From positions 1 to 64,000 of IMG/VR virus record IMGVR_UViG_3300030419_008158: DNA of 64,000 nt; one strand, written 5' to 3'. The stretch comes from a virus. A program made the translations under genes and the position numbers. Positions 1 through 16,618 of this stretch are shown here, one piece after another. Below the pieces are notes generated by a model. It saw nothing but the letters and a program-made list of their open reading frames with translations. It ran no database searches and was not told the origin of the DNA. Position 1 is the stretch's first letter, and each line of letters starts with the position of its first letter.

Positions 1-111
1 GTGATCAAGCATCAAATACATCTCATCGAGAGGATTATATTCATATGCTTCTTGTAGCTTAGCTTTCTCTTCTTTAATGATTCGTCTGAGTTGTCTTTTT
101 GATATTTTCAT
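1..111 (-). CDS. Small KRQLRRIIKEE-type protein, C-terminus cut by window edge
   Basis: The reading frame starts at the ATG ending at 111 and runs off the window, giving 37 visible residues. It begins MKISKRQLRRIIKEEKAKLQ and continues EAYEYNPLDE. The first 20 residues are nearly the same as those of the next two upstream genes, while the rest differs. Its ATG overlaps the stop of the upstream gene (ATGA). The basic amphipathic N-terminus followed by L-Q-E-A resembles a T4-type capsid-targeting peptide with a prohead-protease site; that is inference. Function of the remainder is unknown. Confidence 0.7.
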   Translation of the reverse strand, partial: MKISKRQLRRIIKEEKAKLQEAYEYNPLDEMYLMLDH

Positions 112-338
112 CTTGTCGGCCCCCGCAATTCGTCTTTAATGTCTCTGACCATTTTCTCCAAAGCAGCAAGGATATTGCGATTTGTTTCTGGATCTACTTC
201 ACCATAACCCACTTCGTCTTCAATGACATTGCCGAATGCAAGTTCCCACCAACCTGCGCCTGGCGGAAGCCTGGCTTCATGAAGTTTGGCCTTTTCTTCT
301 TTGATGATTCTTCTCAATTGCCTTTTAGTAATCTTCAC
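108..338 (-). CDS. Small protein with KRQLRRIIKEE N-terminus (76 aa)
   Basis: A GTG start at 338 is chosen because GGAGG lies six bases upstream. The protein begins MKITKRQLRRIIKEEKAKLH then EARLPPGAGW, so it shares its first 20 residues with both neighbours but not its body. The body is acidic, with no recognised domain. The L-H-E-A at residues 19-22 fits a T4 gp21-like protease site, so the N-terminus may be removed during head maturation (inference). It overlaps the downstream gene by four bases. Confidence 0.75.
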   Translation of the reverse strand: MKITKRQLRRIIKEEKAKLHEARLPPGAGWWELAFGNVIEDEVGYGEVDPETNRNILAALEKMVRDIKDELRGPTR

Positions 339-340
339 TG

Positions 341-586
341 TTATCCTCCAAGCCGGCTATTCAAAATCTGAACTGCCTGAGCTAGTGTCTTGTTTTCATC
401 ATCTGTAAAGCGACCATAGTTCTGGTCGATAAGCATTTCCAAATCCAGGATAGTATCACCAGCAAATGAATCAAACTTTTTCGCCATGGCTTTTTCTTCA
501 CTAGAGTCCAAATATCTCTCTGAAACAAGCTTGGCCCTTTCTTCTTTGATGATTCTTTTTAGTTGTCGTTTGGTGATTTTCATCAT
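341..586 (-). CDS. Small protein with KRQLKRIIKEE N-terminus (81 aa)
   Basis: This is the third member of the tandem set, starting MMKITKRQLKRIIKEERAKL and then VSERYLDSSE. Its start overlaps the upstream stop by one base (TAATG). The C-terminal 60 residues are predicted helical and acidic and match nothing I know. As in its neighbours, a hydrophobic-x-Glu site (V-S-E) follows the basic helix. A role inside the phage head is plausible but unproven. Confidence 0.72.
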   Translation of the reverse strand: MMKITKRQLKRIIKEERAKLVSERYLDSSEEKAMAKKFDSFAGDTILDLEMLIDQNYGRFTDDENKTLAQAVQILNSRLGG

Positions 587-3025: not shown

Positions 3026-3718
3026 TTAGTCTTCGATTCCGAAGCGCATTTTCACAATAAGTTTCTCTCTCTCAGTAAGCGAGGACAAAACTTCATTAAT
3101 TTTTGCTGAAAGTCTTTCTCGATCAATTCTTTCATCAGGGCTCGGCTCTCTGGCCGGAATAACATCGGCAAGAGTTCGATTTCCACCCTCAGAAGGAAAC
3201 ATTGGCTTATCGAGCGCAATAGTTCTAGATGCAGACTGTCGCAAAGATCGAAGTGTATCCGGTGTGGTACCGAATTTTTCTGCAGTCTCCAAATCTGTAG
3301 GTTTTCGACCCATTTGTGACTCAAATGCATTTTCAAACTCAGAAATTTTATAAAGCTTTGAAAATGCATTTGACGGTAAATCAATCGTACCGGAGTTAGC
3401 GGCGATGTAAGCTCTTACAGCTGCTTGTATCCACCAATACGCGTAAGTTGAAAACTTAAAGCCCTTTGACCAATCAAACTCATCTACTGCTCGAGTGAGA
3501 CCCAGAACAGATTCTTGAAAAAGATCATCAATATCTACACCGCGATTGGTGTATTTCTTGACAACACTTAGCGCAAGACGTAAGTTTGCCTGTATCATCT
3601 TTTCTCTTGCAGCATTGTCGCCTTTTTCAATACGCTTGGAAAGTTCGATCTCTTCCTCACGAGTCAACAACTTTGTGTCGCCTACGTGATCAAATAGTGA
3701 ATAAGATGTTGAGTTCAT
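3026..3718 (-). CDS. Sigma-70 family factor ending inside region 4
   Basis: This directs host RNA polymerase to phage promoters. Region 2 is well preserved (NLRLALSVVKKYTNRG, DIDDLFQESVLGLTRAVDEF, FKFSTYAYWWIQAAVRAYIA, residues about 45-110), followed by region 3 and the start of region 4 (LSSLTEREKLIVKMRFGIED). There the protein stops, so the region 4.2 helix-turn-helix that reads the -35 box is absent. At 230 residues it is shorter than RpoD or RpoS. AGGAG lies before the ATG. The next gene encodes a small helix-turn-helix protein. T4 late sigma gp55 likewise lacks region 4. Confidence 0.93.
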   Translation of the reverse strand: MNSTSYSLFDHVGDTKLLTREEEIELSKRIEKGDNAAREKMIQANLRLALSVVKKYTNRGVDIDDLFQESVLGLTRAVDEFDWSKGFKFSTYAYWWIQAAVRAYIAANSGTIDLPSNAFSKLYKISEFENAFESQMGRKPTDLETAEKFGTTPDTLRSLRQSASRTIALDKPMFPSEGGNRTLADVIPAREPSPDERIDRERLSAKINEVLSSLTEREKLIVKMRFGIED

Positions 3719-3966: not shown

Positions 3967-5580
3967 TTAGACACTGTCGAAATAAGCAACATTGGAATCG
4001 ACACCGTTGTCGTATTCCTCTGTTATTATACACCCAATAGACAACAAATTACACGCAACTGATAAACTATGTTCGACAGCAGAAACTACGACTGCGTGTG
4101 GATCGAGTATTCCTAAGTCAAACATGTCTCCATACTTATCGTTCTTGCCGTCATATCCGTATGTGTCGGCAGTTCTATTTACTTTTTGAACGACAAGATC
4201 TGCAGATACGTTACAGTTAGCGGCAATTTGTCGGAGCGGGGACTCCAATGCATCTAAAAATGCAACAGCACCTACATCAAAAGAGTCTCTTGCCTTGTAG
4301 CGCTTTCTAACTCTCTTTTTAGCCCTAGTCAATGCCACACCGCCTCCTGGCTGGACACCTTCTTTGAGGGCAGCTCGGCATGCATGAATCGCATCGTCGA
4401 CTCTATCACGCCTTTCTATCATCTCAGCTTCAGTTGCGCCGCCCACTTGAAGCACTGCGATACCATCGCTAAGCCTTTTTAGTCTTCGATCTGCTATTTT
4501 TTTATCATCTAAGCTGGCTGCTGGGTCGTTCATGACTGCCTTTGCCGAACTTTGTTTTTCCTTGACTTGCTCTGTGTGTTGCGTTCCAAAAAGAAGTGTT
4601 GTCTTATTTGTTACAGTCGCTTTTTTAACTCTTCCTAAAACTTCTTCTAGCTCATCTTTTTTTATAGGATGTTTTGCATCAGTAACAATTTTTGCGCCGA
4701 CTAATGCTGCAATATCTTGCAGTGCTGTAACTCTTGCAGAAGCAAACTCGGGTGACTTTATCACACAAACCTTTAGGCCCCCCTTTACTCTGTTCAAAAC
4801 CAAGGCCTGTAATGCTTCTCCTCCCACAGCATTGCAAATTATAAGAAGGCTTCCTCCAGATGCTGCTGTCTTTTCCAGCACCGGAATAATTGTCGAAACA
4901 GATGTAAGCTCGTCACTGATTATCAAAATGTCAGGGGACTCTAGTTCGGAAACTTGCTTTGATGTGTCGGTTACAAAATAAGGTGACTCAAAACCCCTGT
5001 CAATATAGGTGCCCTCAACCATGGTAAGTGTCGTATCATAGCCTTTTGCATCCTGAACTGAAACTGCTCCGTCGGCGCCGACTTTCTCAATCGCACTGCT
5101 TATTATTTCACCCAATTCCTTGTCGCCATTGGCCGAAATAACTGCTACATCACGAAGAGTATCAGGCGTGATGTCAACTTTTGTATTGTTGAGCTCTTCA
5201 ACAACTCTAGCAGCAGCTTCACGCATTCCTGACAGGACTTCGACAACTGAGTGGCCTGCAGAAATTACTTTTTCACCGTTGGCGACAATTTCCTGGGCGA
5301 GAACAGTTGAAGTTGTTGTTCCATCTCCTGCAACAGATGCACTTCTTTGTGCTGCTTCTCTTACAAGAGCAGCGCCTGCATTCTCATATGAATCTTTGAG
5401 CAAAATTGAATTTGCAACAGTTACACCATCTTTAGTAAGATGCGGAACATTGCCAGGTCTGCAAATGGCAACTGTTTTTCCCATGGGGCCTAATGTTATT
5501 CTTACTGCATCCGACAGTTTTTTAACACCAACTAAAAGCTTTTCTCTTGCTTCGGAGTCAAATAAAATTTCAGAATTCAT
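3967..5580 (-). CDS. groEL: GroEL-type chaperonin
   Basis: The 537-residue protein is a full-length group I chaperonin, which folds proteins inside an ATP-driven ring. The nucleotide-binding signatures are present: LGPMGKTV near residue 30, KDGVTVANSI with D51 (E. coli D52), AGDGTTTSTV near 84-93, and RVDDAIHACRAALKEGVQPG with the Asp needed for ATP hydrolysis. The usual GGM-rich tail is missing; the C-terminus ends NVAYFDSV. No GroES gene is in the window, so it may use host GroES or work alone, as some phage chaperonins do. It overlaps its upstream neighbour by a few bases. Confidence 0.97.
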   Translation of the reverse strand: MNSEILFDSEAREKLLVGVKKLSDAVRITLGPMGKTVAICRPGNVPHLTKDGVTVANSILLKDSYENAGAALVREAAQRSASVAGDGTTTSTVLAQEIVANGEKVISAGHSVVEVLSGMREAAARVVEELNNTKVDITPDTLRDVAVISANGDKELGEIISSAIEKVGADGAVSVQDAKGYDTTLTMVEGTYIDRGFESPYFVTDTSKQVSELESPDILIISDELTSVSTIIPVLEKTAASGGSLLIICNAVGGEALQALVLNRVKGGLKVCVIKSPEFASARVTALQDIAALVGAKIVTDAKHPIKKDELEEVLGRVKKATVTNKTTLLFGTQHTEQVKEKQSSAKAVMNDPAASLDDKKIADRRLKRLSDGIAVLQVGGATEAEMIERRDRVDDAIHACRAALKEGVQPGGGVALTRAKKRVRKRYKARDSFDVGAVAFLDALESPLRQIAANCNVSADLVVQKVNRTADTYGYDGKNDKYGDMFDLGILDPHAVVVSAVEHSLSVACNLLSIGCIITEEYDNGVDSNVAYFDSV

Positions 5581-9405: not shown

Positions 9406-9753
9406 CTATAAAATCCCAGCCAGTTTCATCATTCTTGAAGACTCTCTAATCGCTCGTCGAGATGATTTATTTTCTGCTTCTTGGATAACAGACGCTTCTT
9501 TTTGCAGATGTTTTTCTACTTCTCTAAGTCTGCGACGAAGAACTCTCAGTATGCCGTTATAGTAGCTTCTCTCATCCGATCTTGTACCTGATGAATCTCT
9601 TGTGTGAACAGCATCTCCAATTCTGTGTCGAAGGTCTTCAGCACACTCGTCACTTAGACATCCCACTAATGTTCCGTCCATTCTCATGTGAAGATTTTCT
9701 TTCTTTTCCTCACACAAAAGCAAAAGATCTAAATTACTAATATCATTATGCAT
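9406..9753 (-). CDS. Hypothetical protein with C-terminal MKLAGIL tag
   Basis: The ATG at 9753 (MHNDISNLDLLLL) is preferred over a GTG three codons earlier. The 115-residue protein ends AIRESSRMMKLAGIL. The same ending style (NENSQLFRWQKLAGIK) closes the 453-residue protein at 15.2-16.6 kb, although the bodies differ. The I-R-E-S within the tail fits a T4-type protease site. I infer a shared sorting or processing tag. Body function unknown. Confidence 0.68.
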   Translation of the reverse strand: MHNDISNLDLLLLCEEKKENLHMRMDGTLVGCLSDECAEDLRHRIGDAVHTRDSSGTRSDERSYYNGILRVLRRRLREVEKHLQKEASVIQEAENKSSRRAIRESSRMMKLAGIL

Positions 9754-9754
9754 T

Positions 9755-10366
9755 TTACTCACCCACGATAATCACGTCAGTTTTTTCATCTTCTATTCCC
9801 ACCGTTTTTTGGGAATTTTTAGCTACATCGGCTTTTTTCTCCGCATGATCAGCGTCGACAGCAGCATCCGAACCAGCTTTGACACCTGCGAGCACTTGAG
9901 CAAGGCTATTAAGATAAACAAGAACTTGCCTTTTTTCATCAACTGACAGCTTCTCTAGATAGTCCTTCAGGCTCTTTCTAACTTCCGGGTCTTTGATGGA
10001 CTTTCCTCCACGCAGCAGATTTATATTGTTTGCTATTGCTTTAAATGTGGGCTTTGATAGCTGCTTTTTTGACGGGTCTTTTAGTTTTTTCGAAGCTGCT
10101 GTTCCTGTTTCTTCAGGTTTTGTCGCTACTTTTTTGTCCTTTGAACCACCTTGTTCTTCTGGGGCTCCTTTTAGCTTTACTTCATCCTCAGCGGCTTCTT
10201 CTTCGTCCTCTTCCTCTTCTCTTACTTCTTTTTGATTTTCATCAGATGCCCGCAAACCAAGCTTATCAACAGTTGCTGCTTGCTTTTTTTGCAATTTTTT
10301 CTCATCACTCATAGACTCTAGCACAGCTTTTGAAATTATGGCGTCTAACTCTTCAAAAAGATTCAT
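9755..10366 (-). CDS. Acidic Lys/Glu-rich low-complexity protein
   Basis: The 203 residues include an EVREEEEDEEEAAEDEVKLK run and a central more ordered helical domain (about 105-160, SKPTFKAIANNINLLRGGKS). The N-terminus MNLFEELDAIISKAVLESMS has L-F-E and V-L-E sites. Such acidic, partly disordered proteins are typical of phage scaffolds and internal head proteins; this is inference. The start overlaps the upstream stop (ATGA). Confidence 0.68.
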   Translation of the reverse strand: MNLFEELDAIISKAVLESMSDEKKLQKKQAATVDKLGLRASDENQKEVREEEEDEEEAAEDEVKLKGAPEEQGGSKDKKVATKPEETGTAASKKLKDPSKKQLSKPTFKAIANNINLLRGGKSIKDPEVRKSLKDYLEKLSVDEKRQVLVYLNSLAQVLAGVKAGSDAAVDADHAEKKADVAKNSQKTVGIEDEKTDVIIVGE

Positions 10367-14859: not shown

Positions 14860-15203
14860 TTGACTTCGTACTCCTTTTCGAACTCTTTGGAAGACACAGC
14901 TAAAAGATCTTCTTCTTCGGGATCCTCTTCAGATGGAATGTAAAACAAATCTGAAAGATTGCCTATGGGTTCTACTTCGTAAAGAATTTTTTCTTTACGA
15001 TTTTCATCCGATAAAATTCCCTCTTCGCCGGAAGGCTCAAAACGCGGAGCTTCTGGGGGCGATAGCATTATTGTAACTTCTCCGTTGGGCTCTTTTAAAA
15101 CTTGGTCGACTGTGTACTCGAACTGTGAGTCTTTATGCTTTACTTTCAAACCAGGAGAAATCACTATATTTCCGTGACTATCTTTTATGTCTGTTTCATT
15201 CAT
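14856..15203 (-). CDS. Hypothetical protein with small beta-barrel-like start
   Basis: ATG at 15203 (MNETDIKDSHGNIVISPGLK) overlaps the upstream stop by three bases (ATGA) and has AGGA upstream. The first 60 residues look like a short SH3-like barrel (VKHKDSQFEYTVDQVL), followed by an acidic tail. No named family. 115 residues. Confidence 0.65.
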   Translation of the reverse strand: MNETDIKDSHGNIVISPGLKVKHKDSQFEYTVDQVLKEPNGEVTIMLSPPEAPRFEPSGEEGILSDENRKEKILYEVEPIGNLSDLFYIPSEEDPEEEDLLAVSSKEFEKEYEVK

Positions 15204-16561
15204 TTGATTCCTGCTAATTTTTGCCATCTAAAAAGTTGGCTATTTTCATTTAGTGTACTTGACTTAAAGTTTTTATCCATATACGCAAAAACAAACTTTC
15301 TTACCTGCCCTTGTGTGAGATGAAATTGTCCCTCACTAGTCTGTTTGAGCATATGTCCTGCAAGCTTAGGGATTAGTGATTTCAAAGAATCAAAATTCTT
15401 TTTTGAGAATTTTTTACCCTTTATGAGTGTTTCTTGATGTTCATCAACCCATGCTGAAACTGCACTCGCAACATTTGCCTCTATGTTTTCAGCAGAATTT
15501 TCAAGAGATGTCTTAATTCCGTCCTTGAGGCTGTCTAGGCGACCTGCCCCTCTGATCGCGCCTTGAGAACTTTTACTGAGTGAATCAACCCACGAATCAA
15601 GAGCGCCATGTGTACTATCCAAAGGTGAAGACACGTCGTCTGCTTCATCACTTACTGCATTTTCAAGATTCTGTCCTGCCTCTTCAGTGTCAGCAGGCTC
15701 CTGGTCGCCCTCTTCACCCTCTGCGCCTTCTGCGCCTTCTGCGCCTTCTGTTTCAGCAGCGTCAGCTGCATCTTGCATTTCATCTGATAGGCTTGTCACT
15801 ATATCTTCATCGGGTGGTGCGGGTGGAGCTTCACCCAATAAATTAGAAATCTTGGCGCCCATAAGCTCATCTGCTATATCTTTTGCCAAAACATCCATAT
15901 CGACATTAAGCCCGGGAGCTGACATTATTTCTGCTTCTTTCCCTATTCTTGCCTTCTTGAAAAAACTCGAAACCTTTTGAAACATAGTTCCTCCAAGTCC
16001 TTTCTTGAGAATATCGTAAACGCCTGTCGATATTTTTTCTAAATCCAGGTCGGGATCAGCGGCGATAGCATCAGAAAGTGTCGTCTCTTTGTCGACATCT
16101 TTCATTATCGGAAGAAGCTCTTTTCTTATTTTGGTCATTGACTCTAAGAACCCTCTACCAAAATCAACAGCTCGGGTTCCTAGTTTAACAGAAGCACTGG
16201 TAATTTCTGGTAGCGATATTTTTTTACCAAAAAATCCTGATAATTTTCCTGTGTCAAAGCTAACATCTGCCAGCTGCTTTGTTGCTTTATCGAGTGCTTC
16301 TTCTAGCGCATCAATATAATCATACATTAGCTGCAACTCTGTCTTCATTTGCAACTGATCTGCATATGTTCTTAGCTTAGTGAGAGAGTTTCTTGTTTTT
16401 TCTAGAGAGTTTGTAACTTCTTTTACATCCGCAGCATCAAGCTTTTCTGTAAGAAGATATTTTATGCTTTTTTGCTCAAGAAGTGTGTCAGTGCTTTCTA
16501 CAGAAGCAGCACACTTCTTCAGGACATCATAATAAACGGCATCTAGATTTTTCTGCACCAT
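15200..16561 (-). CDS. Large acidic helical protein with C-terminal KLAGIK tag
   Basis: ATG at 16561 (MVQKNLDAVYYDVLKK) has GAGG six bases upstream; 453 residues. An N-terminal helical bundle is followed by an acidic low-complexity hinge with a 9-base repeat encoding EGAEGAEGAEGEEG (about 275-290) and a C-terminal helical part ending TLNENSQLFRWQKLAGIK. That tail (L-N-E then LAGI) resembles the tail of the protein at 9.4-9.75 kb. It looks like a scaffold or internal head protein; this is inference. Confidence 0.68.
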   Translation of the reverse strand: MVQKNLDAVYYDVLKKCAASVESTDTLLEQKSIKYLLTEKLDAADVKEVTNSLEKTRNSLTKLRTYADQLQMKTELQLMYDYIDALEEALDKATKQLADVSFDTGKLSGFFGKKISLPEITSASVKLGTRAVDFGRGFLESMTKIRKELLPIMKDVDKETTLSDAIAADPDLDLEKISTGVYDILKKGLGGTMFQKVSSFFKKARIGKEAEIMSAPGLNVDMDVLAKDIADELMGAKISNLLGEAPPAPPDEDIVTSLSDEMQDAADAAETEGAEGAEGAEGEEGDQEPADTEEAGQNLENAVSDEADDVSSPLDSTHGALDSWVDSLSKSSQGAIRGAGRLDSLKDGIKTSLENSAENIEANVASAVSAWVDEHQETLIKGKKFSKKNFDSLKSLIPKLAGHMLKQTSEGQFHLTQGQVRKFVFAYMDKNFKSSTLNENSQLFRWQKLAGIK

Positions 16562-16618
16562 CTCTAACCTCACGCTACTCTTTGGTAAATATCCTCAAAG
16601 TCGAAAATAGGTGCTTAA

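Follow-up and report, generated by a model that had tools for sequence, protein, structure and literature searches.

A shared N-terminal leader on many small genes of a large marine T4-like phage resembles prohead-core proteins and probably works like a capsid-targeting propeptide

The window analysed here covers positions 1 to 64,000 of a virus record of 284,429 bases (IMGVR_UViG_3300030419_008158; G000 below). Three tandem genes, A, B and C, lie at its edge (Table 1), and their N-termini share the consensus MKI[ST]KRQL[RK]RIIKEE[KR]AKL, forming a leader of about 21 residues. A degenerate DNA pattern of the shared core matched three times in the window as compared with 0.01 expected matches, and three matches were reached in none of 100 shuffles of the window. 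By blastp, the bodies behind the leader show no relation to one another, and both complete genes match only themselves or homologues elsewhere. These data bear out the first-pass annotation, which had described near-identical N-termini on three tandem genes with unrelated bodies. It had further proposed that each leader is followed by a site for the T4 gp21 protease, which cuts after L/I-X-E (PMC9026906); this holds for genes C (LQE) and B (LHE) but not for gene A, which reads V-S-E at this position and carries I12-K-E14 as do genes B and C. The AF2 model of the gene A protein (344-583) was poor (mean pLDDT 59), with residues 5-22 predicted at low confidence as a helix, and homologues of its body occur with variant leaders in the related contigs L061 and L039. 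Elsewhere in the window, a sigma-factor-like 230-aa ORF (3026-3718) and a GroEL-like 537-aa ORF (3967-5580) were recognised by eye from their translations.

Table 1. Positions of the leader-bearing genes, the head genes and the C-terminal motif sites; positions are those of the window unless preceded by G000 or a contig name.
Feature	Position	Strand	Remarks
Tagged gene C	1..111	-	MKISKRQLRRIIKEEKAKLQEA; 3' part cut by window/contig edge
Gene C leader	49..111	-	up to L19-Q-E21 (then A)
Tagged gene B	108..338	-	KITKRQLRRIIKEEKAKLHEA; 76 aa, GTG start
Gene B leader	276..338	-	up to L19-H-E21 (then A)
Tagged gene A	341..586	-	MMKITKRQLKRIIKEERAKLVSER; 80-81 aa
Gene A leader	518..583	-	up to V20-S-E22; I12-K-E14 inside
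118-aa ORF	9406..9762	-	ends MMKLAGIL, weaker copy of C-terminal motif
457-aa protein	15200..16573	-	ends FRWQKLAGIK, the scaffold's C-terminal motif
gp23-type capsid protein	G000 76,443-78,323		PF07068 9.3e-76
gp21-type protease	G000 82,430-83,035		PF03420 5.7e-27; phrog_207 9.8e-51
T4-type terminase	G000 85,818-87,416
Further RWxxLAG-motif sites	G000 78371-80002, 177771-180376; L073:917

The leader is not confined to a set of three genes, as had been assumed initially. A position-specific score built from the leaders located 40 leader places in G000, all on the minus strand and 38 of them with a start codon directly in front, and an HMM search gave 41 matches; the position-specific scan, run on reversed sequence, gave four matches above its low 8-bit floor. 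The leaders cluster near 184-189 kb, 271-277 kb, 280-284 kb and at 1-586, with a single one at 226.9 kb, and three of the 40 places fall within the reading frame of a different tagged gene. Among 37 own leaders the mean pS was 0.72 and the mean pN 0.15, where pN is bounded by the gathering of the leaders by protein score. Synonymous sites are near-saturated, and the leaders are therefore not fresh DNA copies. The T4-type late-promoter sequence TATAAATA was rarer than in shuffled sequence (5 vs 28), so that T4-type late promoters are of no use for timing.

The record ends in ~420 bases that are a repeat of its first ~390 bases. Window positions 281-392 are 96% identical to the contig end and positions 1-114 are 91% identical, whereas the stretch between them differs: gene B is missing there and is replaced, between conserved flanks, by another tagged body (G000 284,375). 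The gene C homologue at this end (G000 284,119) encodes 91 aa. We interpret these repeats as two alleles present in the population, at the position where a circular map closes; alternatively, they may be an old duplication.

A leader-pattern search of viral contigs gave 88 stretches, sorted into 58 contigs. Together with the own genome, these yielded 405 distinct leader proteins of at least 40 aa, 37 of them own. Their bodies (residue 25 on) fell into 221 blastp clusters, 151 of them singletons, with the 37 own bodies in 29 clusters and 41 members in the largest (single-linkage) cluster. The same short N-terminus thus stands on otherwise unrelated proteins of one phage. When a 22-aa leader was compared by tblastn with 50,697 phage records, the exact leader was found in no isolate and the one match was weak (LR756508, E 7). 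This 484-kb phage has a leader family of its own, with the consensus M[RK]L[ST]ERKLRRIVKEEI.RVL.E by eye; ten of its ORFs score above zero on the leader score, and gp21 pieces are present. A literature search found no paper on the letters of the leader, the papers on 'capsid targeting sequence', judged by title, included none on this leader family, and a jumbo-phage overview (PMC7824862), in the part consulted, contains none of the leader terms sought.

Long leader arrays were also seen in a 306-kb contig (NHDW01000006; L172 and L175) binned as a Methylococcaceae MAG, which is probably phage sequence that ended up in a bacterial bin; gp21 lies on contig C5 of that MAG genome. Separately, 29 second leaders were noted that share an open frame with a first one (L015, L019, L088 and others), 14 of them without a start codon in front; these are tandem fusions, with up to four leaders in a frame in L088. 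An [LI]xE motif lies within ten residues upstream in 10 of these 29 as compared with 1-3 of 29 elsewhere. We dismissed this motif as a sign of a polyprotein, as a translated relic of a Shine-Dalgarno sequence (GGAGA, giving G-E) can make the same signal.

Conservation ends at residues 19-22 (L, L, x, E). Residues 2-14 are conserved as well, but there the search itself had imposed some selection, which it had not at residues 19-22. An [LI]xE motif ends at residues 19-24 in 204 of the 405 proteins, as compared with 19 of 405 at the next six residues (25-30) and 19-39 of 325-405 in later stretches of residues; with one protein per cluster, the numbers were 120/221 and 8/221. In the subclass with EE[KR] at residues 14-16, [LIVMF]xE occupies the distal site in 148 of 158 proteins. 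An [LI]xE also ends at residue 14 in 384 of 405 proteins, forming a proximal I-x-E14. Cleavage would be distal (L-x-E, residues 19-24), or proximal when position 15 is A, S, G or T. Either candidate site is found in 330 of 405 proteins and 189 of 221 cluster representatives, so that the leader ends in a gp21-type L/I-x-E site, though not in every member. Among cluster representatives, the distal [LI]xE is present in 105 of 142 leaders with E15 and in 18 of 62 with A, S, G or T at this position (Fisher 3e-9); the contrast was less strong in a control at residues 40-47 (22/139 vs 5/61). Such a trade-off between the two sites is the pattern expected of a protease substrate; subfamily inheritance could contribute to it. 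At the distal site, P1' is not limited to small residues (Q 46, A 27, S 17, G 16).

A second class of leader, MKLLREYIRxLLxE, was found on six G000 genes at 221-230 kb in the form M[KN][LI]LR[ED]YI..LL.E or near to it, and class-2 proteins across loci carry [LIVMF]xE at the leader end in 30 of 31 cases. Bodies are exchanged between leaders. The body GDVILTG...GHPTINGKSILKFK follows a class-1 leader in the own phage and several others and a class-2 leader in L172; the NQWTLL body is found behind class 1 in L026 and behind three other leaders in L086, L057 and L030. The cultured Flavobacterium phage immuto, analysed minus its last 10.4 kb, has four unrelated genes starting MENFDLKKFLVENKLTxNSKLL.E and three, gp080, gp094 and gp095, starting MKKSQLRxIIKE, or near forms of these. 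Scored with the MKKSQ leader, gp072, which lies in the head module, was the best of the other 220 ORFs; no head gene ranked with the MEN-type leader. The start of the immuto head gene gp069 (MENNFDIHKW) is alike by eye, but it did not rank among the best 12 of 223 ORFs and was dropped. Both immuto and LR756508 gave gp21 matches. The exchange of leaders bears on the idea that we are dealing with an old paralogous family with diverged bodies, in which the N-terminus has simply changed most slowly or serves as a module for recombination or translation start. The tandem arrays, the grouping of some bodies into families (up to the 41-member cluster) and the DNA similarity between neighbouring leaders agree with this idea, but one body occurs with different leaders, synonymous sites are near saturation while the protein is conserved, and the boundary at L-x-E is sharp. 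We regard common descent of this kind as highly improbable.

G000 encodes a gp21-type protease, a gp23-type capsid protein and a T4-type terminase (Table 1). The capsid protein has a candidate propeptide site, ENQASQVLKE60 followed by ASSV, with processing suggested by the motif position; its predicted propeptide (to E60) is near in length to that of T4 gp23, given as 65 residues in the part of PMC5694885 consulted. The leader phage therefore has both a gp21-type protease and a capsid protein that would be processed. Of 42 leader-bearing records of at least 30 kb tested, 14 contained gp21 and the same 14 contained gp23; both were present in 13 of 13 records of at least 140 kb. Three of these 13 are identical and represent one virus, leaving 11 distinct viruses, and the gp21/gp23-bearing leader records are mutually related and therefore not independent.

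We read 15 head modules, those of 14 relatives and the own one. A gene of 135-153 aa, core1, lies between gp21 and the scaffold, directly after gp21 or one gene later, and starts MAK[IVM][ST][RK]..LK.[LI][VI]KECL[VF]EIL.E or in a near form. Core1 was positive on the leader score in 15/15 modules and core2, the next gene, which is coiled-coil-like, in only 9/15; the remaining head-module genes were negative except one at 1.4. In an alignment of 13 distinct core1 proteins the N-terminus is best kept, and most end NWA.LAF. By a 21-residue ungapped score, 13 of 13 core1 proteins beat shuffles (0-4 of 2000 reaching them), as did 12 of 13 core2 proteins (0-2 of 2000), core2 of L155 being no better than shuffles (96/2000). 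Among 358 own ORFs, core1 ranks 20th and core2 18th, both inside the range of the tagged genes; outside the tagged genes, these two prohead-core-like genes beside gp21 have the best-scoring N-termini in G000. These scores and ranks lead us to conclude that the leader resembles the beginning of the core proteins that the phage itself encodes. Leader and core1 consensus have 8 of 21 residues in common, in a gap-free register ending at the same L-x-E. Core1 (153 aa) gave no tblastn match among known phages.

The analogy with T4 capsid targeting, drawn at first from the three genes, is strengthened by these results, as the predicted gp21 protease, the gp23 L-x-E propeptide site, the L-x-E boundary and the core link were all found. 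We consider it probable, from sequence and analogy, that the shared leader works like a T4-type capsid-targeting propeptide, imitating core proteins. The leader would be a basic amphipathic helix resembling the N-terminus of the phage's own prohead-core proteins; by this resemblance, a tagged protein would join the core, be enclosed in the prohead and lose its leader to the gp21-type protease, which would cut after [LI]-x-E. The bodies set free may then be small internal proteins, dozens in number, that are injected together with the DNA. Leaders that are short and basic (median +4) might also be amphipathic targeting helices for the membrane, the nucleoid or a phage factory, their likeness to core proteins and L-x-E sites arising by convergence, as can happen with short charged helices. 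The gap-free 21-residue register with a core protein and its common L-x-E end, the site trade-off expected of protease substrates and the recurrence of a similar pattern for one immuto leader argue against such another target, which seems to us quite unlikely.

A C-terminal motif, RWxxLAG, is common to scaffolds, core1 (as NWA.LAF) and several other proteins (Table 1). It occurs in 32 of 4788 distinct proteins as compared with 4 in reversed sequences, once with a class-1 leader, and is perhaps a second, C-terminal entry signal into the prohead.

The bodies are mostly acidic (343 of 405), and most are small and uncharacterised. Among 100 tagged representatives, Pfam gave 14 families with one member each and PHROGs 37 families; a separate test of ten long foreign bodies yielded a single weak match. 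A tagged SLT transglycosylase was found in L078 (3.5e-8) and a tagged pentapeptide-repeat protein in L068. For the class-2 body L094:4477, an AF2 model (pLDDT 73) matched mostly ADP-ribosyltransferase (ART) folds in the VIA-align list, weakly (Z at most 6.7). R34, S75, E128 and E130, forming an R..S..ExE pattern, are kept in a three-sequence alignment of this family. The own homologue of L094:4477 had no Pfam match, and a sequence search of solved structures with the family found nothing. By model and analogy, the transglycosylase and the predicted ART-like fold fit ejected cargo. As a side observation, a K[KE]xPQIF-like start is common to L019:2824, L064:7175, L098:9837 and L101:9195; T4 Alt reads KKKIPQIF...DDAIEQ near its N-terminus and L064 reads KKIPQIF...DAIEQ. 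Docking on the prohead core could also serve assembly helpers that are degraded or expelled, like gp67/gp68 fragments, rather than injected. The similarity of the leader to core proteins and the mostly acidic bodies, like gp67, agree with such a role. Some 40 unrelated bodies per genome and body replacement at one locus suit variable cargo better, and some bodies look enzymatic; we hold the helper role to be unlikely.

As in the capsid-targeting sequences (CTS) of T4 IPI, IPII and IPIII, a short N-terminal propeptide with an [LI]-x-E end precedes unrelated bodies here, in a genome with gp21. According to the relevant part of PMC9026906, the first 10 residues of IPIII are enough for targeting, T4 internal proteins are basic, and T2 and T6 have other basic proteins with CTS-like starts. 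In contrast to the three genes of T4, about 40 are found here, with a leader of ~21 aa, two or more classes of leader within one genome and mostly acidic bodies. The ipII/ipIII leader in the T4 record is MKTYQEFIAE; class 1 was no more similar to the T4 leader than shuffles were, and class 2 was marginal (ipIII 13/2000, ipII 109/2000 shuffles). T4 gp67, RTIDLIKEEKIAIARNFLIE, is leader-like by eye, but 178 of 2000 shuffles equalled it and it was dropped. As the letters of the leader are not those of T4, we take it as an expanded multi-class leader system resembling core proteins. T4 Alt, noted in its record as a packaged ADP-ribosyltransferase, finds a likeness in a class-2 protein whose body has a predicted ART-like fold and an R..S..ExE pattern; this protein, however, has 177 aa as compared with 682, and its fold match is weak. 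In the jumbo phages phiKZ and SPN3US, many head proteins have N-termini trimmed by a gp21 relative, but the propeptides of ejection proteins are mostly longer than 100 residues, and the part of PMC5694885 covering them describes no common short leader. In P1, the N-terminal 30 residues of DarB suffice to package a reporter; the corresponding part of PMC9024508 reports no consensus for Dar N-termini, whereas one consensus spans hundreds of proteins here.

Taken together, the system is known in kind and new in scale, sequence and exchangeable leader classes. Going further, we tentatively propose that T4-like giant phages have an open cargo-loading code, made up of interchangeable leaders (class 1, class 2, immuto MEN and MKKSQ) and the C-terminal RWxxLAG, at least some of them copies of sequences in the phage's own prohead core. 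A small gene of any kind, once captured behind a leader, would become virion cargo, and tens of different effectors would enter the host together and be exchanged between strains as cassettes; this broader proposal we rate as plausible, a little short of probable. The match to the core N-terminus suggests that a capsid-targeting signal acts by imitating a core subunit. If this is true, the first 21 residues alone would be enough to predict hundreds of uncharacterised small phage proteins as injected head cargo, the injected proteins of giant phages would be searchable in metagenomes, and the family would supply candidates for host takeover and anti-defence in ranked order.
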